Positions 44,717 to 64,000 of a stretch of 64,000 nt of DNA are shown one piece after another. The first letter of the stretch is position 1, and every line of letters starts with the position of its first letter. The translations under genes and the position numbers were made by a program. This stretch comes from Cubamyces lactineus (taxonomy: Eukaryota > Basidiomycota > Agaricomycetes > Polyporales > Polyporaceae). The stretch spans positions 1-64,000 of the forward strand of contig JACDTU010000030.1 in assembly GCA_022376465.1 (NCBI GenBank). Direction: 5' to 3'. Under the pieces are notes generated by a model, which saw nothing but the letters and a program-made list of their open reading frames with translations, was not told the origin of the DNA and searched no databases.

Positions 44717-45258
44717 TGTTACGCTTTCGAGCGTGACTCTTAAACTATCAAGCCTTAAGACGTCAATGAATAGAGAGCTTGTATCTATTCAGCTACTAGC
44801 CCTAGCTTGTCGAAGATAAGCGCGTAGTAGTATTTACAGTTGAAAGCGAGTTAACGAGCAACCAAAGTCGTATTTCGCGAAGAGACTGAAAGCTGAGGGT
44901 CGCTCTATGGCGTCGCCTCTTATATACATGTACACAAGCCTGTAGACAGAATGTTCTAGCGTATACAAGGACTTTCTGGTACGTAGTAGCCAGCGCTAGT
45001 TGAACCTAGTAACACTGTGGCAGTGCTACTGTGGACTGTGCAGAAGCGCCTGTGCACTGCGCGGAAGCGACTGTGCACTGTACAGAAGTAACTGTGCATA
45101 GAAAGTCCTAGAGTGTCCTGGATAATACGAGACCATTCCTGTCTGTAAGAACCGTAGCTACAATCCTAGAGTCTACCACATTCGTATCGTACAGCGTAAG
45201 TATCAGACAACGTTACCAGTCCATTGAGATGCCGCAATACCTATCGTACATCGTAACA
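44717..45258 (-). repeat. Element 2, 3' LTR (542 bp)
   Basis: Read by eye it is identical to 53060..53601, with perfect terminal inverted words TGTTACG and CGTAACA. Confidence 0.95.
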
Positions 45259-45273
45259 TCAGCTCCCCCTCCG
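45259..45273 (-). promoter_or_regulatory. Element 2 polypurine tract
   Basis: The minus strand reads CGGAGGGGGAGCTGA directly before the 3' LTR, the expected plus-strand DNA primer site. Confidence 0.8.
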
Positions 45274-45292
45274 CTGAAGGTCGTCCTCGACC

Positions 45293-46570
45293 TTAGGCAT
45301 GCACGATAATGTTCTGGTTTCTCTCGACGACCTCAGGACGGAAAACGTCCAGCGAGATATTGACGAGGTCAGATTCATTACCTACCGCCCGAATGCAGTC
45401 CCACTGCGCCGACTCCGCCGCCGACATACCCAAAGCTTGGCGATAAGTCGTCGGGGTGCGTTCGGCCTCGATCTTGAAGGCAGGGAAGTTTCCTCGACGA
45501 GCGATGACGTCGTCGATAAGGAGCGATGCTGCCATAGTGGTTCTGACTGAAGCCTCAGGCCATCGAAGGTGATACGCAACCATGATACGAGTGGGTGAGA
45601 TACCGAAGGGGTTGTTGGGGACCACGAAGATGTCGCCGTTTGAGTTGACGTATCCAAGCCGATCGTCGCCAGTTCCTCGAAAAAAACCGCAACGCCCACG
45701 GGGTTCCTCGACGTTCTTGGTGACAGTTGTCGGGGGAGGAGGAGGAGGAGAAGGTGCCCGAACGGCGACCTTCAATGCCTCATGAAATTCGTCCTCCGAA
45801 AGCTCGTCGATGGTGCTAAGCTCGAGTTGTTCGAGCTCAGGCAAGAGGTCGAAAGACTCTACCTCAGAATAAGGTGAGTCGGAACTGGAGGAGGTCAAGG
45901 ACGGAGTCGACTCCTGAACCGAAGCCTGACCCCATTTAATAGCTTCTTCTTCAGGATCCGGGGTAGACACCTTCCAGGGGTCAGTTGAAGGGATTGACCA
46001 TCCGTCGTCTGAACTCACATCCGAAGAGTCTACCTCGATAGGCTCGGGGTAGTCGTCGAGACGTTGTGGCCAGAAAACGTGACCCCAGCTATGAGTGCCG
46101 TGTTGGTTACGAAGGGGCATTAGATCCGATAGAGCCCCCGCGATCTGAGGGTTAGCAAGCATAGAAAGAACTTTCTCTGCTGCTTGGATCACAGCCTGGT
46201 AGGCCTCATTCGCGACTTGGTCCACCTTCCTCTTCTCCGACTTGGGAGCCGACGTCTTCTTGTTGTATCCAACGATAGCCCCGTAAGATGGGGCGGCCCT
46301 AGCGAGGGCGCGGTAGACGTCGATGAGGTCTTTAACCTCGGGGAGATGAGAGATCCGAGCCTCGACGTGACTGTAGAGGTCGGGGTGAACGATAACCCAG
46401 CCGATGCGGTCGGCGAGGGTGCCTTCGTCATTGGCCGAGACAGTGTGTCGGGGAAGGTGGTTATAGAAAACCGTCCTCCGTTCGCGGATGAAGTTGGGGG
46501 GACGGGGAATGTTGCGTCTGGAAGCCTCAGAGAAGCGGCGACCAGTGAGATGAGTGCGAGTGTTGACCAT
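45293..46570 (-). CDS. Element 2 accessory ORF downstream of pol
   Basis: 425 residues, starting with ATG 66 nt after the pol stop and ending about 20 nt before the polypurine tract. The N-terminus is basic (MVNTRTHLTGRRF, RRTVFYNHLPRHT) and the middle is helical (EVKDLIDVYRALARA, ANEAYQAVIQAAEKVLSML). A strongly acidic, Ser/Pro-rich region spans roughly 165-285, then PPPPPPTT, and the C-terminal domain is compact (RRGNFPAFKIEAERTPTTYR, WDCIRAVGNESDLVNI). No transmembrane or signal segment is seen, so it does not look like an Env protein. I do not recognise a family. An intact 1.3 kb frame in a young element implies a role in the element's life cycle. Confidence 0.8.
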   Translation of the reverse strand: MVNTRTHLTGRRFSEASRRNIPRPPNFIRERRTVFYNHLPRHTVSANDEGTLADRIGWVIVHPDLYSHVEARISHLPEVKDLIDVYRALARAAPSYGAIVGYNKKTSAPKSEKRKVDQVANEAYQAVIQAAEKVLSMLANPQIAGALSDLMPLRNQHGTHSWGHVFWPQRLDDYPEPIEVDSSDVSSDDGWSIPSTDPWKVSTPDPEEEAIKWGQASVQESTPSLTSSSSDSPYSEVESFDLLPELEQLELSTIDELSEDEFHEALKVAVRAPSPPPPPPTTVTKNVEEPRGRCGFFRGTGDDRLGYVNSNGDIFVVPNNPFGISPTRIMVAYHLRWPEASVRTTMAASLLIDDVIARRGNFPAFKIEAERTPTTYRQALGMSAAESAQWDCIRAVGNESDLVNISLDVFRPEVVERNQNIIVHA

Positions 46571-46636
46571 AGTGAATATCAGAAAATGTTTAGAAAATTG
46601 GAGGGAATATTTGAGTGAGGAGTGGGTTGAGTCTTT

Positions 46637-49600
46637 TTACGACAATTTGTGCCTCTTCTTATAGTTGCGCAAGATCGACTGCGCATTCTTGAGATGTTTT
46701 TCTGGTTCCCAAGAATTTTCCGACGCGGGCCAACCCTTCCAAGCCACTAGATACTGTTTTCGGGTACCTCGGGTACGGTGGCTTAGGATTGCTTCTACCT
46801 CCCATTCCTCTCCTTCCGTCGAATCTGGAGTGGGAATCGGTGGAGGTCGGACGTAGTCTGGTCCGTGCTCCTTAGTTGTGTGGTACGGAGTAAGTAGCGC
46901 TGCGTGGAAGACGGGGTGTATCTTCCATTTCTCCGGGAGTTTTAATTTGAATGTAACCGGTCCCAAGACCTTGACAACTGTGAACGGTCCCACTCGTTTT
47001 GGAATCAACTTCCTAGAGACATATGGAAGCCTTAGGTTCTTTGTATCGAGAAGAACCTTGTCTCCAAGCTTCAGCGGAACTTGAGCAGCGGGGAGCCTTC
47101 TTGACATGGCTGCGGCGGCCTGCGCGTGCGCAGCTATTGTATTCTCCCTGGCTTCCTGAAGACTTTGAAGCCTCTGCTCCGTACTTGGATGCTTTGGGGT
47201 GGTTCGGACTGTCCCAGCGGCTTCTGGCTGAAACCCGTAGAGGAGCTCAAACGGGGATTTTCCCGTGACAGAGTGTGTCCGCTGATTGTGCGCGAATTCG
47301 AATTGAGGCAGCAGTTTGGCCCAGTTCTCCGGATTGTTAGCACAGTAGAGCCGAAGTGCTAAATCGAGTTCTTGATTGACTCGCTCCGTTTCCCCATCTG
47401 TCTGAGGATGGTAGGCCGTGCTGAGTGCCGTTTCAATTCCGAGGCTGTTGTGTAATTCTTTGAATGCCTTGGAGATGAACTGCGGTCCTCGATCCGAGAT
47501 GACCTTCGCAGGTAGTCCGAATCTGCGATATACATCCCTTTGCAGAATATCCATGGCTCCTTCTGCCGTAATATTCTTGGTGCAAGGGGAAAATACCGCT
47601 GCCTTGGATACATCATGGTCAACTACCACTTGGACGGCATTGAATCCATCCGACTCTGGTAGATCCGTGATATAATCCATTGTAATGGTCCGGAAAGGCC
47701 TAGTATCCCCACTGTGTTGAATGGGAATTAAGCCTGGTTTAATGGGATGCGTATTGACCTTGCTTGTTTGGCAAGCGGCGCAACCTTTGACATATTGCGC
47801 AATGAATTTCCGCATGCCTGGCCACATATATTCCCGTTTAACCAGATCGTAGGTTTTCTGGACCCCTGGGTGTCCCATAATCGGTGCGTCGTGATGCATC
47901 TTGACTATATCACGATACAATTGATTATCTGGTGGAACATATACCCTGTTCTTGTACAGGAGTATTCCGTCGTCGTCGGACCAATCTTCTGGTTTGCCGA
48001 ACTCTGGGCGTTTGGTAGCCTTTCCTTTTAGGGTAATGTACTCTACTACCGAGCTGTCCCGTAGCTTGCTATCGCGGATGCGCTCTTGTAGCTCAACGTT
48101 GACAGCTTTGGCAAAAAGTTCTGGTCCCAATAATACGACATCCTTGTTGTCATTTTCCCCCCCGTCATGCCCTAATCTCCGAGAAAGGGCGTCTGCTTGA
48201 GTGAGGGATTTTCCGGGTTGGTGCTTGATTACGATGTTGAACTCCGAGAGGAATAAATGCCATCGTGCCTGCCTGCGATTTAGCTTCTGCGCCGTACGGA
48301 AGTAGGTCAGATTTTTGTGATCTGATAGAATTTCTGTAGGGTGTGGGGAACCCTGCAAAAAATGCCGCCATGCTTCGAGGGCTCGAACAATGGCCAACAA
48401 TTCCCTATCATAAATCTGATAGTTCCGTTCCGCAGGAGTAAAGGACTTGGACAAATAGGCACAAGGATGCCATAGTCCGTCCTCTCCTTGCTGTCGTAGT
48501 ACAGCACCTGTTGCGACTTTAGAAGCATCGCACTCAATCTGAAATGGTTTCTCCGGATCCGGGATTTGCAGGATCGGTTCTTCAGTAAACCGCTTCTTGA
48601 GTGTGTCGAATGCTTTCTGACAATCAGGGGTCCACAGAAAAGGCTGGTCCTTCTTGGTTAATTCCGTGAGGGGTCGGACTATCTTTGAATAATCCCGAAT
48701 GAACCGTCGGTAGAAATTACCGAACCCCAGGAATGCCTGAACCTGCTTGACTGTTTTCGGTGGTTCCCACTCGATAATTGCCTTTAGCTTTACTGGATCC
48801 ATAGCGACTACCCCCGGTCGGATTATTGATCCTAGGAATTCGACTTCTTGTCTGTCGAATTCGCATTTTTCCGCTTTGAGGAATAGATCACTGTCTTGAA
48901 GTCGCTGTAAAGCTCTTCGCGTCCGCTCATGGTGATCCTCGACATTGTCTGAGAATATCAGGATGTCGTCCATATAAATGACCATCCATCCTTCCTGGAG
49001 CATGTCTCGGAAGAGGTCATTCATCATGTTTTGGAATGTGGCCGGTGCATTGCACAGACCAAAAAACATGACTGTTGGTTCGAACAATCCACTGGGTGTT
49101 ATAAACGCAGCTTTCCACTCATCACCCTCCTTGATGCGCACATTATTGTACCCTGCTCTCACGTCGAGTTTGGTGAATATTGTGGCCCCCTTCAGCCGGT
49201 CAATGATGTCGCTGATGAGCGGCAAGGGATATGCGTTTTTAATAGTCCCCTCGTTAAGAGCCCTGTAGTCTTGAACAGGTCGAAGACTCCCATCTTTCTT
49301 GGTGACAAAGAAAAATGGCGAGGCTAGTGGAGACTTGGATTTTCGAATGTAACCCTTCTCGAGGTTTTCCGCAATGAATTTGTCGAGTTCTATACGTTCC
49401 GTATAGGTCAGAGGGTAGATTTTCCTCCAAGACCCCTTGGTATGATGGTCGAAGTCCTTCTTGAATTCGATAGCATGGTCCCATGGTCTCGAGGGCGGAA
49501 ATCTACTTGCTGCCTTTTTCTCAAAGACCTGTCGATAGTCTTTTACAAAATCAGGTAGGATTTCGTCTAGGGTCTTCTCCTTCTGGTCTTTCTTCGCTGC

Positions 49601-50286
49601 TATAGCGATCTCCGTAGACTTATTAATCTTTCGGATTTTCTTCTTGCGGTACCATAGCTCGATGGCCCTCGAAGGATTAAATGTAAGCCTTTCAGAGTCT
49701 GGGTCTGCGTCGTCCTCGTCCGGTATAGCACGTACGAACGATACGACCAGGTCTTGATTTAGAGGTTTTACTGGGAAGTTCCACAGCATCCCTTCAGGTG
49801 GGTCGTGCTCGCATTGGTATTTGTGGATCTGCTGCTGTTTCTTGATAATATCCGACTTGAAAGTAATGCGACCACTTTCCCAGTCGATATTAGGATTGTA
49901 CTTGCGGATCCATGGCATGCCAAATAGGACATCGTCCCGCCCAATGTCAGCCACATACCAATTTGTTGGGAGCTTCTTCCCTTGGAGATTAAATGTCCCC
50001 TCCACCCGATGGGTAATGGTTCCCATGCTATTAACGCTATCGTCCGTGTTCCGGAAAGTCAGAGTCTTTGGTAGTCTGACTGTCGGAAGATTGTACTTGT
50101 CCACAATCTTTTTATTGACGATCACTGCGTCCGCACCAGTGTCGATGAGTCCCTTGATTTCGACGGCTTTGTCCTGAACCTGCATGTAACCGGGTATCAG
50201 CAGAGCACTGCGTCTCCGCTCTGTATTGGTTACAATAGTTACATGCAGTTCCTTGGGCAAGTCAGGCGTCGAGTCTGCTTGCCTGC
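46637..50286 (-). CDS. pol: Element 2 Pol (protease, RT, RNase H, integrase, chromodomain)
   Basis: About 1215 residues in the -1 frame of gag. No ATG occurs before codon 25 or so of the frame, in line with expression by frameshift. Counting from the TTG at 50260: protease DTGADAVIV at about 40; RT with PVQDYRALNEGTIKNAYPLP at about 328 and YMDDILIF at 429; RNase H ECDASKVATGA at about 576 and [10 protein letters not shown]; integrase zinc-binding H-x-H-C-C at about 789-830 (GHPGVQKTYD to CAACQ), core [19 protein letters not shown] and [16 protein letters not shown]; chromodomain from about 1145 (WEVEAILSHRTRG to YLVAWKGWPASENSWEPE). All catalytic residues are present and no stops occur. Confidence 0.95.
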
Positions 50287-52161
50287 CTAAAAACCCGTCT
50301 CAAAATCTGTAGCCCTGAGTGCGTTAATAGAAATATTGTCCTCTTCGTCCTCTTCGTCCTCTTCGTCTGAGATTTCTTCAGACTCGTCCTCTAAGTCCTC
50401 GTCGGTAACCTGTCGTACCTTCCGACTGACAGGTTTGCCGGGCTTCTTAGGTTTAGAAGGACAGTCTCTAGAAATATGTCCCGGCTTCCTGCACCGGAAG
50501 CATAGTCCCTTGTCTTGCAGCTCCTGTCTCTCCTTGACAGAGAGCTTGTTAATATCGAGCGAGTCGTCCTCGATATTAACCGTCTTGACGTTCTTCCTAG
50601 TCTTCAAGGTTTTGGCCTTGCGTCCTCTGCGATTAGCCAAAATCTTTTCCGTAAGGTGATAGCTATGGTCGATCTCCTTAGTCCTAGTCATCCACTCTTC
50701 AATGGTCGTCGGCGGAGGGTACGACATGGATATCTTCTTCAGTAAATATTCTGGAAGCGCATTCCTGTACAGGGCCAGTTGCGCTGCTGGGTCCAGAATT
50801 TTTCCCTTGAGAGCTAGATCCATGAACCTCGCATTGAACTCATCGACTGAAGAGTAGTCCTTGAGCTGTATCGTCGTGAGATTAACCATAGAGTCGTCCA
50901 CCTCGTCTACTGGGGCAAAGGCGAGTAGGAAATTCCTCTTGAAGACCGGCCAAGAGTCAAATCCTCGATAGACTCCCGGTCTAATTTCCTCTTCAGCTCG
51001 CTGAATTGTGATGTCCTTCCAGTAGTTTATATTGTCCCCTTCCATGAAGGATAGGGCCGTCGCCACCTTCGTGTAATCATTAACGAAGTCGTGGGGTCGC
51101 GCCGTGAACAACAGGAACAGTTGATTGAGGAAGGACCTGGTTTTGTCTCGGTCTCCGTTGAAGACCTCAGGGTCCTTGATCTTGCCCTTTCCGTGTCCTT
51201 GCGGCGCATTTCCTGGAGCTTCTTGCGGTTCCGGGTCTGGGTCTGGTCCTGGTGGTCCTCCTCCTGGGGAGTAGGGATCTGAAGGCTCAGGGTCAGGCCG
51301 ACCTCCGGGCCTACCTGGTCCGCCTCCTCCTCCACCTCCAGAAGGATTGATAACTCCTCCAGAAATTGCCGTTGCCCGAGGGGCTGGTCCACTTGATAAA
51401 GACCCGTATCTTTCTCCTTCTGAGCCTTGCCCTTGCGGAGTGAACGCATATCTATGGGCTCCAGAAATGGACTCTCCTGTCACTGTTCCCGACATGTACG
51501 ATGGTACTGATTTTCGTACAAATTCTGGGGTTGCGCTGCGACCAGTATACTCCAATTCAGATTTAGTCTCCTCGACCTCTGTCTGAATATGCTCTTCTCT
51601 CGGTTCAGGTGTTTCTGCCTCTACCCGAGTGTCTTCTGTTTTCGGTGCAGGTACTACGACCTTAATCCGAATAGTTTCTTCGATTTTCGGTTCAGGTGCT
51701 TCGACCGTCGTCCGAAAAGTCTCGTCCTCCTTGTCCGAGTCCTCTACCTTAGGCGGTTCGGTCTCCTTTCCTTTCTCCTTGAAGGATGGACCTGATTCCT
51801 TAGGTGATTCGGATTCTTGAGGTTTCGGGGTTCCTACTCTTGAAGTCGGAAACGATCCTGACACAACTCTCGGACTATTAATCCGACCAGTAGCTTTTCC
51901 AGCAAGTAGTGGCTTCTTGACTACCGCGGGTTGTCGTCCGTGGGTACTAGTAATATCCCGCTCTTGTGAGGAGTGTGTTAGGATTAAAGCCGATGCGTGC
52001 TTGACGTTTGGAACTTCCTTAGTGTTGTACCGAAGTGGACACCTTTCGTTGGTGCAAAAATTCCACTTGTCTACGCTTTCTCGATAGTATACGTCCCGAG
52101 CTTTGTCGGAGTTGTAGAGATGATATAACCTTGAACAACTATATGGTTCAGCTGAACTCAT
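50287..52161 (-). CDS. gag: Element 2 Gag
   Basis: 624 residues. The start ATG overlaps the stop of ORF1 as ATGA. The N-terminal half is disordered with acidic repeats and a Gly/Pro-rich stretch. The capsid-like region shows PEVFNGDRDKTRSFLNQLFL, YWKDITIQRA, SWPVFKRNFLLAF, VDEFNARFMDLALK and YPPPTTIEEWMTR. The zinc knuckle is CFRCRKPGHISRDC, followed by a basic then a very acidic tail. It ends ACG GGT TTT TAG. Confidence 0.93.
   Translation of the reverse strand: MSSAEPYSCSRLYHLYNSDKARDVYYRESVDKWNFCTNERCPLRYNTKEVPNVKHASALILTHSSQERDITSTHGRQPAVVKKPLLAGKATGRINSPRVVSGSFPTSRVGTPKPQESESPKESGPSFKEKGKETEPPKVEDSDKEDETFRTTVEAPEPKIEETIRIKVVVPAPKTEDTRVEAETPEPREEHIQTEVEETKSELEYTGRSATPEFVRKSVPSYMSGTVTGESISGAHRYAFTPQGQGSEGERYGSLSSGPAPRATAISGGVINPSGGGGGGGPGRPGGRPDPEPSDPYSPGGGPPGPDPDPEPQEAPGNAPQGHGKGKIKDPEVFNGDRDKTRSFLNQLFLLFTARPHDFVNDYTKVATALSFMEGDNINYWKDITIQRAEEEIRPGVYRGFDSWPVFKRNFLLAFAPVDEVDDSMVNLTTIQLKDYSSVDEFNARFMDLALKGKILDPAAQLALYRNALPEYLLKKISMSYPPPTTIEEWMTRTKEIDHSYHLTEKILANRRGRKAKTLKTRKNVKTVNIEDDSLDINKLSVKERQELQDKGLCFRCRKPGHISRDCPSKPKKPGKPVSRKVRQVTDEDLEDESEEISDEEDEEDEEDNISINALRATDFETGF
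50290..50296 (-). promoter_or_regulatory. Predicted -1 ribosomal frameshift heptamer GGGTTTT at gag stop
   Basis: In the gag frame the minus strand reads G GGT TTT with TAG directly after it. Slippage gives GGG TTT TTA GGC AGG, which enters the long pol frame without a stop. This matches the X XXY YYZ rule and parallels element 1. Confidence 0.75.
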
Positions 52162-53033
52162 ACACGTTGTGCTTGTCGTAGGAAAGCCTGATGTAGTTCC
52201 CTAGCTCGGAGGCAACTACGAAATTTCCTAAGATTTTCTTCGAGGTCTATATCTGCGTAGTTCTCCGGATTGAGGACCTTTGCTCGCAAGTAGTCAATCT
52301 GGTTCTGAAGATATCCCGCAAAGTTCCGTACCCTCGTTGGAGGCGTAACAGCTTGTCTTGGAATAAATTCGAGTGTCTGGATGACCTGAGTTATGTATCG
52401 ATGGGCTCGTTCGAGAGTCGCGTGATATCTCCTCGTGAAGTCTTCCTGTCCTAGTACTTCCAAGTTATCTGCTATAACTCGAAGTGTATCGATCGCGTGC
52501 ACCGGAAGCTGTGTTCTCCGATAGAATATCCCTGCCGTTGAGGATGCTTCTTCAACACTAGTTTCTGGAGTCGATCGATCCGAACTATCCGTTCCTGGAC
52601 TCGCTCGGGTTGGAATGGGTACGCCTATTGCTACTCCTGATTCCGCCTGAATGGCCAGAGAATTCCTATATTCTCTCCACTCTTGTGTTCGCTGAAACGC
52701 GGGTTCGTGGTCCGATACTCGAGTGCTCCGACCCGACGATATTGAACTGGTACTTTCTACGTAAGGGATTGTCGAGCTAAAACCTCTTATCAAGGGGAAT
52801 GGGGATCCTCTTGGCGAACTTGGGAGAGCAACTATATTCTCCGGGATCGCGAGTGGTGGTAGCCTCGGCAGTGTTTTGTTCCTTCCGTCTAGTACCCCGG
52901 GTGATTGTCGCAATGGGGGTTGTGTAGTTCCCTCCGTATTGACTATCGTCTCTCTGTACGTTACGAGCAAGAGAGGGTTCTGATGCGTTTCGTAGTCGTT
53001 GTCTTCCGACGTAGGCCTCTGCACTTTTAACAA
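52158..53033 (-). CDS. Element 2 ORF1, open frame without any AUG
   Basis: A 291-codon frame between the 5' LTR and gag, open back into the LTR, with no ATG codon anywhere. The first half is Ser/Pro/Thr rich. The second half is helical (HAIDTLRVIADNLEVLG, RRYHATLERAHRYITQVIQ, RNFAGYLQNQIDYLRAKV, RKFRSCLRARELHQAFLRQA). Its TGA overlaps the gag ATG in ATGA. It must start at a non-AUG codon, by splicing, or not at all; preservation of 291 codons in a young element favours expression. Family unknown. Confidence 0.6.
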   Translation of the reverse strand: MLKVQRPTSEDNDYETHQNPLLLVTYRETIVNTEGTTQPPLRQSPGVLDGRNKTLPRLPPLAIPENIVALPSSPRGSPFPLIRGFSSTIPYVESTSSISSGRSTRVSDHEPAFQRTQEWREYRNSLAIQAESGVAIGVPIPTRASPGTDSSDRSTPETSVEEASSTAGIFYRRTQLPVHAIDTLRVIADNLEVLGQEDFTRRYHATLERAHRYITQVIQTLEFIPRQAVTPPTRVRNFAGYLQNQIDYLRAKVLNPENYADIDLEENLRKFRSCLRARELHQAFLRQAQRV

Positions 53034-53059
53034 GTGGAGGGTTAAAGCTTTCAGTCTAA

Positions 53060-53601
53060 TGTTACGCTTTCGAGCGTGACTCTTAAACTATCAAGCCTTA
53101 AGACGTCAATGAATAGAGAGCTTGTATCTATTCAGCTACTAGCCCTAGCTTGTCGAAGATAAGCGCGTAGTAGTATTTACAGTTGAAAGCGAGTTAACGA
53201 GCAACCAAAGTCGTATTTCGCGAAGAGACTGAAAGCTGAGGGTCGCTCTATGGCGTCGCCTCTTATATACATGTACACAAGCCTGTAGACAGAATGTTCT
53301 AGCGTATACAAGGACTTTCTGGTACGTAGTAGCCAGCGCTAGTTGAACCTAGTAACACTGTGGCAGTGCTACTGTGGACTGTGCAGAAGCGCCTGTGCAC
53401 TGCGCGGAAGCGACTGTGCACTGTACAGAAGTAACTGTGCATAGAAAGTCCTAGAGTGTCCTGGATAATACGAGACCATTCCTGTCTGTAAGAACCGTAG
53501 CTACAATCCTAGAGTCTACCACATTCGTATCGTACAGCGTAAGTATCAGACAACGTTACCAGTCCATTGAGATGCCGCAATACCTATCGTACATCGTAAC
53601 A
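53060..53601 (-). repeat. Element 2, 5' LTR (542 bp)
   Basis: Contains a minus-strand TATATAAG at about 53262-53270 as likely promoter core, and is followed on the minus strand by TTAGACTGAAAGC, where a primer-binding site would lie. Confidence 0.93.
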
Positions 53602-53606
53602 TCAAT

Positions 53607-55607
53607 TTTCGTCTCGACTATGCTCCAGGTATCAAAAACCCCGCGGACGCACCATCAAGACGCGCTGACTTCGCGCCTCGAGAGGGGGATGCCGTCCTCA
53701 GCGAGAACCGAAAGGCGCTGCTGACGCCGGTTCACACTGAGCGGCTTTTTGACCCAGCTCGGCGCAACGCTCAGTCAGCTGCATCTCTCCGATTGGCCGC
53801 GCTCACGACCATTTCAATTGACCGGTCGGACTTCCAACAGCGACTTAAGGCCGCTGTCCGTTCGGACGTGGAGTGGCGCGAGGCCGTACGACAAGGCGAC
53901 CCGGACTTTACAGTCCAGGGATCGCTCGTCTATCACCGCGGTTTACTCTATGTTCCCCGTCCGTTGCGCGCTGACATCTTGTTTTCTCGCCACGATTCCG
54001 TTTCCTCAGGTCACCCCGGGCGCGAACGCACGAAGGAGCTAGTCACTCGTGACTTCTCCTGGCCAGGTATCTCGACCTACGTACGTCAGTACGTTGAGTC
54101 CTGCGACACGTGCGGACGCATCAAGGCGCCCCGACACAAGCCCTTCGGTCTTCTTCAACCCCTCGAGATCCCTCACCGTCCATGGCAGGACATTACCATG
54201 GACCATATAGTGAAACTCCCCCTTTCTCATGGCTACGACTCGATTTGGGTCGTGTGCGACCGTCTTACCCGTTATGCTCATTTTATTCCTTGTTCCGAGT
54301 CAACGGACGCTCCCGCGTTCGCTTGGCTCTTTCTTGACCGTGTTTTCCGTTACCACGGTATGCCTGAGAGCATCGTCTCAGATCGTGGTCCCTTGTTTGT
54401 TTCGCAATTTTGGAATGCACTGACCAAGCTTCTTCACACCAAGCTCAAGTTTTCGACGGCTTACCATCCACAGACCGACGGTCTCACCGAGCGGACGAAC
54501 CAGTCACTCGAGACGTACCTCCGAGCGTACGTTTCGAGTCAGCAAGACGACTGGGTCGACTACCTCCCGCTCGCCGAGTTCGCGTTCAACAACCATGTGA
54601 ACGCGTCCACCAAGCACACCCCCTTCTTCGCGAACCTCGGGTACCACCCGACGTTCGATCCCCTTATCACTCCCCCTTCCGTCACCGTTCCAGCTGCCGG
54701 CGACCTCGCTCAGCGTCTCACTCGTATCCATAACGAGTGCCGCTCGCAGCTACTCGCTTCCCAAGACCGACAATCTCGTTACTACAACGAGCGAGTCAAG
54801 GACGCGCCCAAGTTCAAAGAAGGCGACCTCGTTTGGCTACTCCGTCGCCACATCCGTACTACTCGGCCATCCGACAAGCTCGACCATCGCCGTCTCGGGC
54901 CCTTCCCCATTGAAACCAAGCTTTCCGACCTCGTCTACCGCCTTCGTCTCCCTGCTTACTTTTCCCGTCTCCACCCCGTCTTCCATGTCTCCCTCCTTGA
55001 GCCCTATACTCCTCATCCCGACCTTCATCCTGTGTCCGATCCTGTTCCTGTCGACATCTCTGATGACCTACCCCCTGCCGAACCCCATTCCATCCTCGAC
55101 TGCCGTCGTACTGGTCGCCGATTCGAATATCTAGTCCACTGGAGAGGTTTCCCTCCCGAGGAAGACTCCTGGACGCCCATCACCGACCTTCCATCAACGC
55201 CCGCTGTCAACGAGCTTCTTGAGCGTTGGCATCGTCGTCACCCTCGCGCTCCTCGTCCCCCGCGTTCGCTTTTATGGCATACACCTTCTATTCATACTAC
55301 TAACTCTACTGTACATTCCGAGCCTATCCCGTCGCAGGTCCCCGCCGCTGCCGCTGCTCCGCCGTCCTCCTCCGCTCCTGCCGAAGAAGACTCCCCGCCG
55401 TCGCCGCGCTCTCCTGCTTCCGTCGTCGCTCCGTCCCGCCTCGTCATCCGTCTCCCGCCGTCACGCCAGCCCGTCGCGCCCCGCTCCCGCCGCACGCCTT
55501 CGCCTGTACCTCAGCGCGAGAACCTTCGCGCTGAGTACACGCCGCCGACCCAGACCACGACTCGTTCCGGGCGTGTGTCACGGCCGGCCGCGAGATACGA
55601 TCCGTGA
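53607..55607 (+). CDS. pol: Element 1 Pol, second part (integrase and chromodomain-like end)
   Basis: It continues the frame of 42231..44716 with FRLDYAPGIKNPADAPSRR, the usual RNase H to integrase linker. Integrase zinc-binding (SSGHPGRERTKEL, CDTCGRIKAP), core MDHIVKLPLSHGYD, VSDRGPLFVSQF and [17 protein letters not shown], then GPFPIE and FHVSLLEPY. The chromodomain-like end has EYLVHWRGFPPEEDSWTP. A Pro/Ser/Arg-rich tail ends at TGA 55607. Removing element 2 and one TCAAT restores one frame from RT to here. Confidence 0.93.
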   Translation, partial: FRLDYAPGIKNPADAPSRRADFAPREGDAVLSENRKALLTPVHTERLFDPARRNAQSAASLRLAALTTISIDRSDFQQRLKAAVRSDVEWREAVRQGDPDFTVQGSLVYHRGLLYVPRPLRADILFSRHDSVSSGHPGRERTKELVTRDFSWPGISTYVRQYVESCDTCGRIKAPRHKPFGLLQPLEIPHRPWQDITMDHIVKLPLSHGYDSIWVVCDRLTRYAHFIPCSESTDAPAFAWLFLDRVFRYHGMPESIVSDRGPLFVSQFWNALTKLLHTKLKFSTAYHPQTDGLTERTNQSLETYLRAYVSSQQDDWVDYLPLAEFAFNNHVNASTKHTPFFANLGYHPTFDPLITPPSVTVPAAGDLAQRLTRIHNECRSQLLASQDRQSRYYNERVKDAPKFKEGDLVWLLRRHIRTTRPSDKLDHRRLGPFPIETKLSDLVYRLRLPAYFSRLHPVFHVSLLEPYTPHPDLHPVSDPVPVDISDDLPPAEPHSILDCRRTGRRFEYLVHWRGFPPEEDSWTPITDLPSTPAVNELLERWHRRHPRAPRPPRSLLWHTPSIHTTNSTVHSEPIPSQVPAAAAAPPSSSAPAEEDSPPSPRSPASVVAPSRLVIRLPPSRQPVAPRSRRTPSPVPQRENLRAEYTPPTQTTTRSGRVSRPAARYDP

Positions 55608-56088: not shown

Positions 56089-56505
56089 TGTTACGACGAG
56101 CCTAGATCGGTCACAGCAAGCGACGTCCTAGGGATCGGACCAGAGGTCTCCAGTGGTTCGAGTCGAGTAGAGGTTCAAAGGAATAGGCAATGGATAACCA
56201 GGTCGAGCTGAGGATCCCGAGTGGATCCTCTGGTCTTAAATACAGGAAGAGAGACATGGACACGTCAGCGCCACGTAGGCGCCACGTACCGTGAGAGTCC
56301 AGTATAACTACGTAGAGTCAGGGCTGGGAGTACAGATGATGTGGCGATGACGTGGCGGAAGGTGATAGGGTAGTAATACAACAGCCGTGTGAACCGGTGG
56401 GAAAGGATGACGTGGCATGGGAAAGGATGACGTGGCATAACGGGGGCACGAGGAAGAGAGAGAAAAAGGAAACTGGGTGACCGTGACGTACTGAGCATCG
56501 TAACA
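56089..56505 (-). repeat. Element 3, 3' LTR (417 bp)
   Basis: On the minus strand it starts TGTTACGATG and ends CGTCGTAACA, with TATTTAAG at about 56236-56243 as TATA-like box and repeated ccacgtcatcctttccca units near 56407-56440. Confidence 0.88.
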
Positions 56506-56519: not shown

Positions 56520-56869
56520 TGCTTCTACGCTGTTCCATCAGCGGAATATCCAGCTCAACTCGTAAACCGCTCGTCCATGTCTTCTGGGCGCAGAGGGCAC
56601 TCCCATGGGTGATGGCCAGGGGCGGTGGCGCGACACCAGACACATCGCCAGTCTCTGCACCGCAGGTACTCGTGATCCAGTCGTGGTCACCACTCATTGT
56701 TAACAATAGCCCACCTAGGTAGCAAAACCATTGTGGAAGACGTGGCCACATCAAGTACAATGATAAAATGCCCACAAGGTTTGATAATGAAGAATCACTG
56801 AATTGTAATTGGACGTGGGCTCTTTGTCAATACAATATGAACAATCGTGGGGGTATTGTACATGGTTCT

Positions 56870-57720
56870 GAATTACAATTGGCCCACGTAGGGATGATAA
56901 TAGCTGCGTTGTAGATGTTCGTGGGGGTATTGTACATCGTCCTGAATGACAATTGGCCCACGTAGGGATGATAATAACTGGATTGTCAATGTTCGTGGGG
57001 GTATTGTACATCGTCGTAGGGGCATTGTACATCGTCCTGAATGACAATTGGCCCACGTAGGGATGATAATAACTGGATTGTCGATGTTTGTGGGGGTATT
57101 GTACATCGTCGTGGGGGTATTGTACATCGTCGTGGGGGTATTGTACATCGTCGTAGGGGCATTGTACATCGTCATGGGGGTATTGTACATCGTCCTGAAT
57201 GACAATTGGCCCACGTAGGGATGATAATAACTGGATTGTCGATGTTCGTGGGGGTATTGTACATCGTCGTGGGGGTATTGTACATCGTCGTGGGGGTATT
57301 GTACATCGTCGTAGGGGCATTGTACATCGTCGTGGGGGTATTGTACATCGTCCTGAATGACAATTGGCCCACGTAGGGATGATAATAACTGGATTGTCAA
57401 TGTTCGTGGGGGTATTGTACATCGTCGTAGGGGCATTGTACATCGTCCTGAATGACAATTGGCCCACGTAGGGATGATAATAACTGGATTGTCGATGTTC
57501 GTGGGGGTATTGTACATCGTCGTGGGGGTATTGTACATCGTCGTAGGGGGATTGTACATCATCGTGGGGGCATTATCAATGATCATGATTTACAAAATGC
57601 CCACGTAGGGATGATAATAACTGGATTGTCGATGTTCGTGGGGGTTATTGTACATCGTCGTACAGACATTGTACATCATTGTGGGGGTATTGTACATTGT
57701 CGTACAGGCATATTCAACAC
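56870..57720. repeat. Tandem-repeat array in left palindrome arm
   Basis: 21 bp units (form GTGGGGGTATTGTACATCGTC, with variants cgtagggGCAtt) occur in runs of 1-5, separated by a conserved spacer with GACAATTGGCCCACGTAGGG and GATAATAACTGGATTGTC. At least six spacer blocks are visible. Confidence 0.85.
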
Positions 57721-58610
57721 CTTCCTGCCACTCCTTCTCTAGGGCCACATTGGGGCACCCTGTTGGGCTAAATCTATATATAACATATATGTATTTGCTT
57801 TAACACATATATCTGTTTATAGCAACACATTTGGGCAGGGAAAGTAGCCTAAAAATGCGACCCTAGGGTAGGGGCCATCAGGAGGGGACCAGTGCAGGGT
57901 GCGTAGCATGGCTCCCTCTGGGTCAATTTCTATGAACAATATATCATTGGAAAGGTGCTTGAAAGGGCTTTCCAACGCATATTATTGCATGAGGAATAAT
58001 GCAGTATTGGTAGAGATATGGACCATCGCATTTTCGCCCAAAATGGCCATTTTGGTTCCTTGATTGCTTGGCAACCAGGCATTCCCTCATGCTCCCCTTG
58101 GTACCGTTGGATTCGCGTTTTTAAGGGCTATCTAATGGTAGTAAATACATGGTATTCTGACCACATGCATTGTCACCCTCCTCCTGCCCCTCCCCCACTT
58201 TACCACCTCATAGCTCTTGCAGTTCTTTGTCTTTCTCGGTAATCTCTTTTGATCCTTGTAGTATACATAGAGAACTATGTATTTACCGCTTTTTACACCC
58301 TAATATGGCCTACTCCCAATGGAATTCATGTAGGTGCATTTTCGCACTTTTCAGATTCTTCCCTCCATATCTCTGCACCCAGAGCAGATATTGACTTCGT
58401 TTTTGTTGCATTTTGTGCCTATAAACCTCTGCTATTGGGCTGTGGAAGCTCATCCTTATCGAATGCAGTGATCAGAATTGAGCTCCTTATCAGCTGGGGG
58501 AGGCAGATCCTGTTTTGGTTTACATCCAGCGAAATATTTTCTAATCAGATGGCACATTCATATTCTACTCGTCTATACCTACCTGGCACAACAAGAATCA
58601 TGAGATTTGG

Positions 58611-58754
58611 ATGAGTAGTTGCAGAGATATGGCTCAGAGGCACCAAATGCTGCCTGTTCAGCAATGCACTGCATGCATTTCCGGAGCAGTGCAACTGCAC
58701 ATCCTGCAACTTTGGGTGTCTAGGAGGTCCATTTCCTGTAGCTCACTCAGTTCT
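58611..58754. other. Unique core between palindrome arms
   Basis: About 145 bp not repeated in either arm. It would be the loop of a hairpin. It contains the short palindrome TGCACTGCATGCA-like region near 58664-58678 and no ORF of note. Confidence 0.7.
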
Positions 58755-59649
58755 TCACCAAATCCCATGATTCTTGTTGTGCCAGGTAGGTATAGACGAG
58801 TAGAATATGAATGTGCCATCTGATTAGAAAATATTTCGCTGGATGTAAACCAAAACAGGATCTGCCTCCCCCAGCTGATAAGGAGCTCAATTCTGATCAC
58901 TGCATTCGATAAGGATGAGCTTCCACAGCCCAATAGCAGAGGTTTATAGGCACAAAATGCAACAAAAACGAAGTCAATATCTGCTCTGGGTGCAGAGATA
59001 TGGAGGGAAGAATCTGAAAAGTGCGAAAATGCACCTACATGAATTCCATTGGGAGTAGGCCATATTAGGGTGTAAAAAGCGGTAAATACATAGTTCTCTA
59101 TGTATACTACAAGGATCAAAAGAGATTACCGAGAAAGACAAAGAACTGCAAGAGCTATGAGGTGGTAAAGTGGGGGAGGGGCAGGAGGAGGGTGACAATG
59201 CATGTGGTCAGAATACCATGTATTTACTACCATTAGATAGCCCTTAAAAACGCGAATCCAACGGTACCAAGGGGAGCATGAGGGAATGCCTGGTTGCCAA
59301 GCAATCAAGGAACCAAAATGGCCATTTTGGGCGAAAATGCGATGGTCCATATCTCTACCAATACTGCATTATTCCTCATGCAATAATATGCGTTGGAAAG
59401 CCCTTTCAAGCACCTTTCCAATGATATATTGTTCATAGAAATTGACCCAGAGGGAGCCATGCTACGCACCCTGCACTGGTCCCCTCCTGATGGCCCCTAC
59501 CCTAGGGTCGCATTTTTAGGCTACTTTCCCTGCCCAAATGTGTTGCTATAAACAGATATATGTGTTAAAGCAAATACATATATGTTATATATAGATTTAG
59601 CCCAACAGGGTGCCCCAATGTGGCCCTAGAGAAGGAGTGGCAGGAAGGT

Positions 59650-60720
59650 GTTGAATATGCCTGTACGACAATGTACAATACCCCCACAATGATGTACAAT
59701 GTCTGTACGACGATGTACAATAACCCCCACGAACATCGACAATCCAGTTATTATCATCCCTACGTGGGCATTTTGTAAATCATGATCATTGATAATGCCC
59801 CCACGATGATGTACAATCCCCCTACGACGATGTACAATACCCCCACGACGATGTACAATACCCCCACGAACATCGACAATCCAGTTATTATCATCCCTAC
59901 GTGGGCCAATTGTCATTCAGGACGATGTATAATACCCCCATGACGATGTACAATGCCCCTACGACGATGTACAATGCCCCTACGACGATGTACAATACCC
60001 CCACGATGATGTACAATCCCCCTACGACGATGTACAATACCCCCACGACGATGTACAATACCCCCACGAACATCGACAATCCAGTTATTATCATCCCTAC
60101 GTGGGCCAATTGTCATTCAGGACGATGTACAATGCCCCTACGACAATGTACAATACCCCCACGAACATTGACAATCCAGTTATTATCATCCCTACGTGGG
60201 CCAATTGTCATTCAGGACAATGTACAATACCCCCACGACGATGTACAATGCCCCTACGACGATGTACAATACCCCCACGACGATGTACAATACCCCCACG
60301 ACGATGTACAATACCCCCACGAACATTGACAATCCAGTTATTATCATCCCTACGTGGGCCAATTGTCATTCAGGACGATGTACAATACCCCCATGACGAT
60401 GTACAATGCCCCTACGACGATGTACAATACCCCCACGACGATGTACAATACCCCCACGACGATGTACAATACCCCCACGAACATCGACAATCCAGTTATT
60501 ATCATCCCTACGTGGGCCAATTGTCATTCAGGACGATGTACAATGCCCCTACGACGATGTACAATACCCCCACGAACATTGACAATCCAGTTATTATCAT
60601 CCCTACGTGGGCCAATTGTCATTCAGGACGATGTACAATACCCCCACGAACATCTACAACGCAGCTATTATCATCCCTACGTGGGCCAATTGTAATTCAG
60701 AACCATGTACAATACCCCCA
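59650..60720. repeat. Tandem-repeat array in right palindrome arm (inverted)
   Basis: The same units as the left array in inverse orientation, but the array is about 200 bp longer because of extra 21 bp units and an extra spacer block. Confidence 0.85.
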
Positions 60721-61810
60721 CGATTGTTCATATTGTATTGACAAAGAGCCCACGTCCAATTACAATTCAGTGATTCTTCATTATCAAACCTTGTGGGCAT
60801 TTTATCATTGTACTTGATGTGGCCACGTCTTCCACAATGGTTTTGCTACCTAGGTGGGCTATTGTTAACAATGAGTGGTGACCACTAGTGCGTGATCGGG
60901 TGACCCACAGACTAGGCAGCTGCGGCCAATAGGGTGGAGGGACGGCGGGGACTCAGGTCGGGCTGGCGAAGCGTCCATTGGGGCGGGCGAGGTGTCTCTT
61001 CGAGCTCTTACGTTACGCTCGTCGGGGGATGGATCACGGGGCCGACGGCTTCCTGCGGAGACTCTGGTGTGGAACAAGGGCAGATAGGTCCCTTGGCGTC
61101 GGGCTTCGCCGGGTACTCTTCTTGCCGCAGCTGGGAGTTCTCCGGGAGGTGGGGCCGCGTCATTGATGACCGAGGCCAGTGGCGCCATCCTTGCACGGAA
61201 TGCGGGGAGTTCGAACGTTTGTATGAGGAAGTTCCTCCATGTGCGCGTGGTCCGGGCGAGCCGTCGAGTGGTGTTCAAAGAGTGTCTTGCCAACCTCCGT
61301 AACTCGTGGGCATGGTGCCCGACGTTTTCGAGGGCGCGCGCCTGCCGTTCTGCGATGTCGTAGTCCGAGACTTGCCGTTGCTCCTCTTCTTCACCAAACG
61401 CCTCATGAAGAGCGTCTAAAGCGTCCTCTGCGATGTCAGCTGCGTCAACAAGGTTCCCTTCCAGTGCGTCCAGTTCCCGTTGCTCGTTGTAGAGGCATCG
61501 ATACTCTCTAAGGAAGTACTGCAAGCCTCGCTCGGTGGCATTGACGACTGGGGTAGGGTTGGTGAGGAGCGCACGGAGCAACTGGTTGACGTCGGGGTGC
61601 CGGGAGTGGTCTACCAGATGAGAGTCTTCGACACCAACCGTGCTGAGGTCCGACGTCGAGGAGGCGGGCGATGGTGACCTAGAGGTGTATTCCGGTGGGG
61701 GCGACGAGAGGCGTCTGGCGAGTGGGGGAGGAATGGGTAGCGGCTGTTGGTTTTCCTGGTCGCTTGCATTGTCGTCAGCGACTTGGGTGCTATAGAGGGG
61801 GCGGCCCATT

Positions 61811-61999
61811 CTACTCGTCCCAGCTGGAGTTATTGAGGGTGCGGTCGGCCTGGTCAAGCTTGTCGTTTACGGGGTCGAGAGGGTCACGGTGTTCGAGAGC
61901 AGTTTCGAGGATGTTGATGGAGAGGCGCAGGTGAGTGGCGATGAAGGCAAGGGCAAGGAGGTAGCCGAGGGTCATGCAGGTGAAGAGCGCGATGATCAT
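61811..61999 (-). CDS. Element 3 small membrane ORF, second (62 aa)
   Basis: Starts with ATG 5 nt after the stop of the 52 aa ORF and stops 1 nt before the ATG of ORF4. Residues 2-23 (IIALFTCMTLGYLLALAFIATH) form one predicted transmembrane helix. The rest is an amphipathic helix and an acidic tail (LETALEHRDPLDPVNDKLDQ) ending NNSSWDE. Codons end mostly in C or G as in pol. No family recognised. Confidence 0.6.
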   Translation of the reverse strand: MIIALFTCMTLGYLLALAFIATHLRLSINILETALEHRDPLDPVNDKLDQADRTLNNSSWDE

Positions 62000-62004
62000 G
62001 GGCT

Positions 62005-62163
62005 TCACGATCCCCACGCTGATCGGGATGGGTAGTCACGGCTGTGGAGGGTGTGCTCGATGATGCGGTTGAAGAGGTCGCGGAGGATATACCAGAGAAA
62101 GAGGAGGGTGATAGCGAGGAGGGTGAGGCAGTAGATGGCGAAGAGGATGGCGAGAGAGAGCAT
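62005..62163 (-). CDS. Element 3 small membrane ORF, first (52 aa)
   Basis: Starts with ATG 6 nt after the pol stop (TAA 62172..62170). Residues 2-27 (from LSLAILFAIYCLTL to LLFLWYIL) are one strongly hydrophobic segment, then a basic amphipathic stretch (RDLFNRIIEHTLHSRDYPSR). Too short for normal gene finders. Codons end almost always in C, which supports real coding. No family recognised; the size and shape recall viroporin-like or phospholamban-like miniproteins, but that is only analogy. Confidence 0.6.
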   Translation of the reverse strand: MLSLAILFAIYCLTLLAITLLFLWYILRDLFNRIIEHTLHSRDYPSRSAWGS

Positions 62164-62169
62164 TGCAGA

Positions 62170-64000
62170 TTACAGCAGCTTCTTCGCCCTTTTATACCGT
62201 TGGAGGATTTCTTTGGCATTCGGAATTAGAGCGGACTCGGGTTCCCATGTGTTCTCGGCGCTGGAGTAGCCTTTCCACTTGATTTGGTAGCGGATTCCGC
62301 CTCGTGTGGTCTTGTGTCCGACGATCGCTTCGACCTCATATTCTTCTTCTCCGTTGATAAGGTCAGGTGGTGGCCTCGTGTAGTTCGGTCCGTGGGTGTC
62401 GTTTTCCTTGTATGGGGTGAGGAAGCATGCGTGGAACGCGGGGTGTACCTTCCAGTGTTTCGGCAGCTCCAGCCGATAGGTCACGGGTCCAAGTACTTCG
62501 GTGATGACAAAGGGGCCTTCCCGTTTGGGTGCGAGTTTCCGGGATGCGTAAGCGAGCTTGAGGTTCTTCCCTTCGAGCCAGACCTTCTGTCCTTTCTTGA
62601 ATTGGACGAACTTTCCCTTGAATCTGTCGCGTATGACGTGTCGGGCTAGCTCGTGGGCTGCTAGGGCTTCGTCTCGGGCCTTCTGGAGGTTCACTAGCCG
62701 TTCTTGTACTGTCGGGGTGTTGGTCTTGGGGTATGCGATAGGAATCAGTGTCGGTTCGTACCCCATCATGAGGTAGAATGGTGATGCGTTCCGTGCTGAG
62801 TGGGTCCGTTGATTGTGTGCGACTTCTGCGTCGACAAGGTGTTCCGCCCATTCGTCTGGTCGGCCTTCGCAGAATATCCTGAGGTAGACTTCCAGTTCTT
62901 GATTCACTCGTTCAGTTTGTCCGTCGGTCTGCGGGTGATATGCGGTAGACGGGGAAAGGGTGATGCCTAAGAGTCTTCCTAGTTCGCGAGTGACGTTGGA
63001 TACGAATTGTGGCCCTCGGTCGGATATGATCTTGCTGGGTAGTCCAAAGTGTCGGTAGACATGCCGGTGGTAAAGCGCCGCTGTGCCGATTGCGTCGATC
63101 GTCTTCTTGCATGGTGCGAAAATCACCCCCTTCGTAAGGCCATGGTCGACCACGACCAGAATACTATCGTAGCCGTGGGATTCGGGGAGATCGGTGATGA
63201 GATCCATCGTGACGTTCTGGAATGGCCGAGTAACATCGTCAGCGGGGATTGGTTGTGGGGGCGGGGTGGTCGGGTGTGTGTTTGGCTTGTTCTGCTGGCA
63301 TGTGGCACAGCCTTCGACGTATCGGGATACCATGGCATACATGCCGGGCCACCAGTACGACCGTCGTATCAGTTCTAGAGTCTTGAATTTCCCAGGGTGT
63401 CCGGCTGCCGGGGAGTCGTGGTGTTGACTGATCAGGTCTCGTCGCAGAGCTTCGTCGGCCGGTACGTAGCATCGGTTCTTGTAGAAGATTAAGCCATCTC
63501 GTTCTTGCCAATCGGTGAGTGCACTTCTGATCGGGGGTGGTCCGTCGTGTTGGATGGCAGCAAGTGCGTCGCAAAAGAGTCTGTCTTGCGTGGCCAAGTG
63601 TCGGAACCTCGGTGCCAGTCGGGTGTCCACTAGTCGTACGAAGAGGTTGTCAGGTAGCATGGTTCGTTCAGTATTGTCGTCTTCTGATCCTTGTCGGTGA
63701 TCGGGTCTTCGGGATAGCGCATCCGATTGTACCATTGCCGTGCCGGGGGTGTGTACGAGTTGAATGTCGAACTGGGAGAGAAAGAGGGCCCATCGTGCTT
63801 GTTGCCTGTTCAGTTGTTGCGGGTTGCGCCAGTAGGTGAGGTTCTTGTGGTCGGATAGGATCGTAACCGGGTGCCCTGATCCTTCGAGGTAGTGTCGCCA
63901 GGCTTTCAGGGCTCGAATGATGCCAAGTAGTTCTCGGTCATAGATTTCGTAGTTCCGTTCCGCTTCGGTGAATCCTTCGGATAGATACGCGCACGGGTGC
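62170..64000 (-). CDS. pol: Element 3 Pol, C-terminal part (RNase H, integrase, chromodomain)
   Basis: The frame enters from beyond the window with [20 protein letters not shown] (RNase H) and [20 protein letters not shown]. Integrase: [33 protein letters not shown], core [26 protein letters not shown] and [17 protein letters not shown]. Then [31 protein letters not shown] and a chromodomain ([33 protein letters not shown]). No stop until TAA 62170. It is similar in layout to element 2 Pol but clearly a different lineage from element 1. Confidence 0.95.

Follow-up and report, generated by a model that had tools for sequence, protein, structure and literature searches.

Behind the pol gene of a young chromodomain Ty3/gypsy long terminal repeat (LTR) retrotransposon of Cubamyces lactineus stand three closely spaced open reading frames (ORFs), A, B and C, which are protein-coding and under purifying selection. 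The element lies on the minus strand of the DNA analysed here (contig JACDTU010000030.1, positions 1 to 64,000; this whole stretch of 64,000 nucleotides (nt) is referred to as the window), and its order is gag, -1 shift, pol, A, B, C, LTR. The main family of the element (the near family), a diverged copy at C39 and a distant family share a clade-specific accessory module behind pol. The best explanation of the whole, on which our judgement is evenly balanced, would be a coupled accessory module with a membrane role.

In the window copy, pol ends with TAA at 62172-62170 (minus strand, as for all coordinates of the module). ORF A (62005..62163; 52 amino acids (aa), one hydrophobic stretch) starts 6 nt after the pol stop and in the pol frame. 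ORF B (61811..61999; 62 aa, one hydrophobic stretch) starts 5 nt after A, and ORF C (60865..61809), with PPEY at residues 38-41, 1 nt after B. An earlier note on this DNA had described the 52-aa and 62-aa ORFs following the pol stop with gaps of 6, 5 and 1 nt, and these positions were confirmed. The length of 344 aa that it gave for ORF C applies to 28 of the 30 copies fetched (window copy included). The window copy itself has 314 aa because a nested palindrome interrupts ORF C; the other exception, L016, has 345 aa and an altered end.

The host genome (36.3 Mb in 43 contigs) was searched and holds at least 40 copies of the element. Both small ORFs are uninterrupted in all 30 fetched copies, where their starts and stops fall at identical positions and the gaps are 6/5/1. 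The earlier note had staked its proposal on other intact copies being free of stops, frameshifts and lost spacing, and this check did not refute it. In genome-wide protein searches with A and B, whose near-family rows include fragments, 57 of 59 rows of A and 56 of 58 rows of B were free of stops, both stop-bearing B rows coming from one copy. Distinct variants were then counted against L010, which is not an ancestor, in 29 copies (25 for the pol end; L028, with a 2-nt offset, was excluded). Synonymous and non-synonymous variants numbered 6 and 3 in A (5.8 non-synonymous expected under random placement; P 0.032), 9 and 5 in B (9.8 expected; P 0.0026), 63 and 33 in C (64.6 expected) and 62 and 46 in the pol end (72.5 expected); for C and for the pol end, 0/5000 simulations of neutral placement reached the observed bias. 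The module is more than chance because the ORFs and their spacing are conserved and the variants are biased towards synonymous ones. Most differences from L010 (139/227, direction not polarised) are C to T or G to A. Stops in decayed copies are mostly TGA, and with the excess of C to T and G to A the pattern is as from deamination of methylated cytosine.

The diverged copy (L053, C39:140301-140850) has the layout pol TGA, 6 nt, A (52 aa), 4 nt, B (62 aa), 1 nt, C. Its reverse transcriptase (RT) is 98% identical to that of the near family, 46/52 residues of A and 48/62 of B are identical, and its C is 92% identical to protein P0002, which is 69-70% identical to near-family C. The differences fall mostly in third positions of the stated frames (codon positions 1, 2, 3: 6, 1, 11 in A; 6, 7, 22 in B). 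Against the near family, the ratio of non-synonymous to synonymous substitution rates (dN/dS) comes to 0.124 in A, 0.137 in B and 0.10 over the first 25 codons of C; a ratio below 1 in both small ORFs had been proposed as a check in the earlier note. The spacer between A and B is 5 nt in the near family vs 4 nt in C39, and the relative frame of A and B is therefore not conserved. This is as expected if A and B each start on their own AUG, and frameshifting between them is ruled out. Divergence climbs along the C39 copy (RT 98%, A 88%, B 77%, C about 70%, the last through P0002). Either recombination with a break close to the end of pol or very rapid evolution of the module would account for this gradient.

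The distant family carries homologues of A, B and C plus a fourth ORF, X. RT genes near its loci, paired by position, are 85-91% identical to near-family RT, and its longer matches to C are about 30-34% identical (27-39% with fragments counted). The full layout was read in one copy (C17): pol TGA, +10, A' (77 aa), 0, X (74 aa), -4, B' (50 aa), -8, C' (434 aa). The TGA of A' directly abuts the ATG of X, X and B' share ATGA, and B' and C' overlap by 8 nt (ATGCCTAG). ORF X was matched at fifteen loci in the genome. The spacing of the matched blocks is constant between A' and X in 14/15 copies, and between X and B' in 14/14 copies with both matches (one after allowing for an alignment one residue short). 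X is interrupted by a stop in 3/15 rows, and several copies of C' have one to three stops.

In segment-wise shuffles, 0/3000 reached the score of A against the second unit of A', and 0/3000 that of B against B'. By sequence comparison, A is homologous to the second unit of A', and B to B'. The A unit occurs twice within A' (0/3000 shuffles), and the sequence supports A' as an internal duplication of A. The same comparison detected no relation of ORF X to A or B. Shuffles reached the score of A against B' in 113/3000 cases, A against B in 606/3000, and the second unit of A' against B in 34/3000 and against B' in 437/3000. For A and B as paralogues, hhalign gave a probability of 4.6% (E 0.0087). 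Chance ORFs are ruled out by the selection test together with the conservation in the C39 copy and in the distant family.

The maximum 19-residue Kyte-Doolittle mean is 2.68 for A and 2.36 for B, and only 0.86 for C of copy L010; A, B, A', X and B' all reach at least 2.36. A and B are predicted to be single-pass membrane miniproteins. The earlier note had read a hydrophobic helix in both small ORFs and proposed membrane miniproteins, a proposal which the hydropathy and the purifying selection bear out. Both A and B start with a short N-terminal end without charged residues, which instead follow the hydrophobic stretch; this suggests an N-out/C-in topology. C is modelled as a soluble, mostly helical protein with two long helices (residues 89-140 and 150-200) and a disordered, proline-rich N-terminal arm that bears a PPxY motif (predicted local distance difference test score, pLDDT, < 50 over the first 74 residues). 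Relatives were found in the protein collection for C (3), B (4) and A (4). The sole named one among them is an annotated C relative in Trametes cubensis, with 67% identity over 49% of the query. The viral contigs searched gave no relatives of C or B.

All 30 copies have a PPxY at residues 38-41 of C; P0001, P0002 and P0003 carry it in the equivalent position and C' at 39-42, the x being E, S, N or P across the homologues. A second PPxY is present in P0002, P0003 and C', and C' also has PSAP. No PPxY occurs in gag or pol of copy L045, nor in gag, pol or the third ORF of a second gypsy element in the window. As a functional motif, the PPxY of C is suggestive. Near-family C ends in the pattern CX2CX4HX4C followed by a second Cys/His set. 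The C39 end matches it with 79% identity (query residues 6-48), while C' in the one distant copy read ends without a Cys/His cluster.

A, B and C may be made from one polycistronic RNA by serial termination-reinitiation, for which we see somewhat better than even chances on the strength of the ORF layout. Ten junctions in three lineages all lie between -8 and +10 nt. The stop-start spacing which the earlier note had singled out is identical in 30 copies and altered yet tight in two further lineages, so that stop and start stay close throughout (6/5/1 in 30/30, 6/4/1 in C39, +10/0/-4/-8 in one distant copy). We infer that the short steps from A to B to C are more secure than entry from pol. The arrangement resembles coupled termination-reinitiation in caliciviruses, influenza B, victoriviruses and SART1, in which stop and start are likewise a few nt apart, and the distant family has the 4-nt AUGA overlap. 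Overlaps of the types AUGA and UAAUG are named in the accessible part of PMC5972666. The known coupled systems, as far as that part describes them, involve one ORF pair that usually overlaps, whereas here three to four successive junctions are found, most starts come after the stop, and the likeness is one of layout.

Several observations weigh against serial reinitiation. Only 2/10 junctions overlap (-4 and -8, both in the distant family) and the remaining starts lie 0-10 nt past the stop, while the usual layout after long ORFs is an overlap of the stop and start codons or a start before the stop (PMC5972666, accessible part). RNA folding, in a model free of pseudoknots, gave z from -1.85 to +1.51 upstream of 8 junctions, nothing unusual. 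A TATA-like sequence 33-37 nt before A is conserved in three lineages and would permit an internal promoter.

With such a promoter in the pol end, or by splicing, a short capped RNA would carry A, B and C, with A and B as upstream cistrons and C reached by reinitiation or leaky scanning. We regard this origin as possible, though rather unlikely. The TATA-like sequence of the window copy, GGTATAAAAGGGCGAAGAA (62180..62198, minus strand, 33 nt before the ORF A ATG), takes the form GGTATAAAARGGCGAAGAA at the DNA level in the three lineages read, with R variable in L053 and L054, and is the sole TATAAA on the sense strand of the L045 pol frame. The same motif, however, codes for YKK of the pol C-terminus, and the second window element has TATAAGAAG at the same place with its next ORF 66 nt off; coding may therefore explain it. 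At 33-37 nt from the ATG, a TATA would also leave hardly any leader for A. Scanning on such an RNA would be helped by the absence, in all three lineages, of any out-of-frame AUG between the A and C starts except the start of the next ORF, but a count this low does not reach significance as avoidance of AUG (P 0.43-0.81 for each small ORF). By the usual rule of start context, B and X appear weak and C strong. Such a short RNA has a retroviral parallel, a small membrane protein ahead of Env on one mRNA. Were it spliced, an intron of retroviral type, some 5 kb long, would be out of the ordinary for a fungus. If the pol stop were read through, a Pol-A fusion would result, its tail anchoring the integrase or Pol in the membrane, with free A secondary. 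A does lie in the pol frame in the near family and in C39 (gap 6 in both), but the 10-nt gap of the distant family puts A' out of that frame, and an ATG needless for readthrough stands at the A start in 30/30 copies; we consider such a fusion scarcely probable.

PPxY motifs can bind Nedd4/Rsp5-type ubiquitin ligases. C, together with A and B, would connect either a host factor or the particle formed by Gag with cell membranes, and its PPxY would recruit a ligase of this type. Judged from the sequences, this scheme is tentative and somewhat more likely to fail than to hold. Membrane trafficking is the reading taken because of the hydrophobicity of the small proteins and the conserved PPxY of C, and a role in membrane targeting or release is plausible on these predicted features. 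With respect to the class of PPxY late-domain proteins and Rsp5/Nedd4 adaptors, C has the conserved PPxY in a disordered region, the disorder being taken from a poor model (pLDDT < 50). A wider proposal would be that polypore chromodomain retrotransposons carry a membrane-trafficking module of two to three miniproteins and a PPxY adaptor, expressed as a cascade of three to four cistrons on one RNA, which brings Gag particles to membranes and to ubiquitin and the endosomal sorting complexes required for transport (ESCRT), for movement within or between hyphae without Env. This broader proposal is doubtful. Further points weigh against the best explanation: A, B, C, A', X and B' match no Pfam family at cut-off, AlphaFold gives a model of C (mean pLDDT 47.7) too poor for a structure search, and shuffling alone produces a PPxY in 3-7% of N-terminal regions of 75 residues and in 6-19% of full-length proteins.

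The earlier note had also raised an Env-like module, by which particles would exit and enter hyphae. Membrane proteins downstream of pol do take the position of Env, and the accessible part of PMC5408684 suggests similar roles for smaller transmembrane ORFs of bdelloid elements. No module protein, however, has the size or the parts of a fusion glycoprotein: A has 52 aa and B 62 aa, C has no hydrophobic stretch, and no Pfam match lies above cut-off. With no positive evidence found for it, an Env-like entry module is very unlikely. That note had further called C a zinc-knuckle, nucleocapsid-like protein, and C as a second nucleocapsid-like RNA chaperone, with A and B minor, would be consistent with the CX2CX4HX4C end of near-family C, its second Cys/His set and the similar end in C39. 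The pattern stands, but the assignment is weakened: Gag already has its own zf-CCHC, C has no Pfam zinc-knuckle match, and C', the one distant homologue read, lacks the motif. The Cys/His end also weakly matches a C1-type domain (1r79, E 0.0011), and its fold may be of either kind. We hold the chaperone to be highly improbable. C as the Gag of the element is ruled out, Gag lying upstream of pol with its own Pfam domains. A coupled module with a membrane role remains the preferred reading.

A eukaryotic RNA on which three or four cistrons are coupled serially, stop to start, would, if true, be exceptional, and with so many near-identical copies of the element the coupling could be tested directly with reporters in yeast. 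If a fungal retrotransposon that stays within the cell keeps conserved membrane miniproteins, the question would arise why it needs membranes. It may further be asked whether particle trafficking or release, usually linked to Env, arose separately here. The interval between pol and LTR can house fast-evolving accessory genes that are invisible to Pfam-based annotation.

No description of such a module or cascade was found in the literature searched, mostly without subscription journals. According to the accessible part of PMC2864245, most full-length fungal elements have one or two ORFs, and a figure legend marks an additional ORF of unknown function; that part describes neither membrane miniproteins nor a stop-start cascade for them. 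Two ORFs are likewise given as usual in the accessible part of PMC3248453. Plant and rotifer elements are reported to have additional sense-strand ORFs in the interval from pol to the 3' LTR, some of which encode transmembrane helices (PMC7264820 and PMC5408684, accessible parts). Those ORFs are, in these parts, single and typically linked with spliced messages, whereas here two to three miniprotein ORFs and a helical PPxY protein follow one another stop to start.

Retroviral Vpu upstream of Env offers another likeness, a small membrane protein before a larger ORF on the same RNA. No sequence relation is claimed, and C, unlike Env, is not glycoprotein-like. In the PPxY late-domain proteins of retroviruses and budding viruses the motif also lies in a proline-rich disordered arm with x varying. 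It belongs there to Gag or a matrix protein, whereas here the candidate motif lies in a separate ORF behind pol.

The element is otherwise like basidiomycete chromoviruses in its LTRs with 5-bp duplications, its capsid and zf-CCHC gag, the -1 gag/pol overlap, the RT and the chromodomain integrase. Within the window, the C-terminal part of pol (62170..63735, minus strand) has integrase H2C2, core, SH3-like and chromodomain regions, and its frame runs past the window end. The full frames were read in copy L039, where pol (1316 aa) and gag (509 aa), stop to stop, overlap in the -1 frame at 7015-7120 (minus strand). In copy L045 the sequence G GGT TTT lies immediately 5' of the gag TGA, and G GGT TTT fits the slip-site rule for -1 frameshifting; it is likely the frameshift slip site at the gag/pol overlap. 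Pfam domains in Gag are Retrotrans_gag, Ty3_capsid and zf-CCHC. In the scanned pieces of pol, RVT_1, Integrase_H2C2, Chromo and SH3_Tf2-1 were above cut-off and rve slightly under it.

Twelve ten-kb regions were fetched, and self-comparison gave LTR pairs in nine (eight of 417-418 bp and one of 385 bp; identity 99.0-100%). A 5-bp target duplication was present at 8/8 copies inspected of the 12. These near-identical LTRs and target duplications, with the RT, integrase, chromodomain and Gag zf-CCHC, place the element among the chromodomain Ty3/gypsy LTR retrotransposons. In the same 8 copies ORF C ends 48-49 nt before the 3' LTR, and A, B and C therefore occupy the whole interval between pol and LTR.

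The palindromic insertion in ORF C of the window copy (56678..60890) was delimited by self-comparison and flanking alignments. It is 4.2 kb long, with two arm segments that are 99% complementary, a 147-nt centre and repeat arrays spaced 21 nt. Between the two flanking alignments there is an overlap of 7 nt, as expected of a target duplication, and the insertion resembles an inverted duplication or an element of the foldback type. On its far side the main element resumes at 56677-56089 with the remainder of ORF C, the pre-LTR stretch and then the 3' LTR. The displaced 3' end of ORF C, with the Cys/His part and the stop, lies at 56555..56677 (minus strand), and the 3' LTR, placed by alignment to copy L045, at 56089..56505 (minus strand), the ends of both being derived by hand.

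The second gypsy element of the window (46637-52161) has a third ORF of its own (425 aa; 45293-46570, minus strand), whose first ATG is 66 nt behind the pol stop and which gave no Pfam match above cut-off. A relation of ORF C to this ORF was ruled out (BLASTP E 3.4). Since the second element carries an unrelated third ORF, accessory ORFs behind pol are not limited to one family of the genome. RT matches of its type, about 66% identical to the RT of the main element, number dozens across the genome, and a module of the A/B/C type was seen only in the near family (C39 included) and the distant family. A plus-strand retroelement (43232-44743 and 54198-55607) is apparently split by insertion of the 44712-53354 element.

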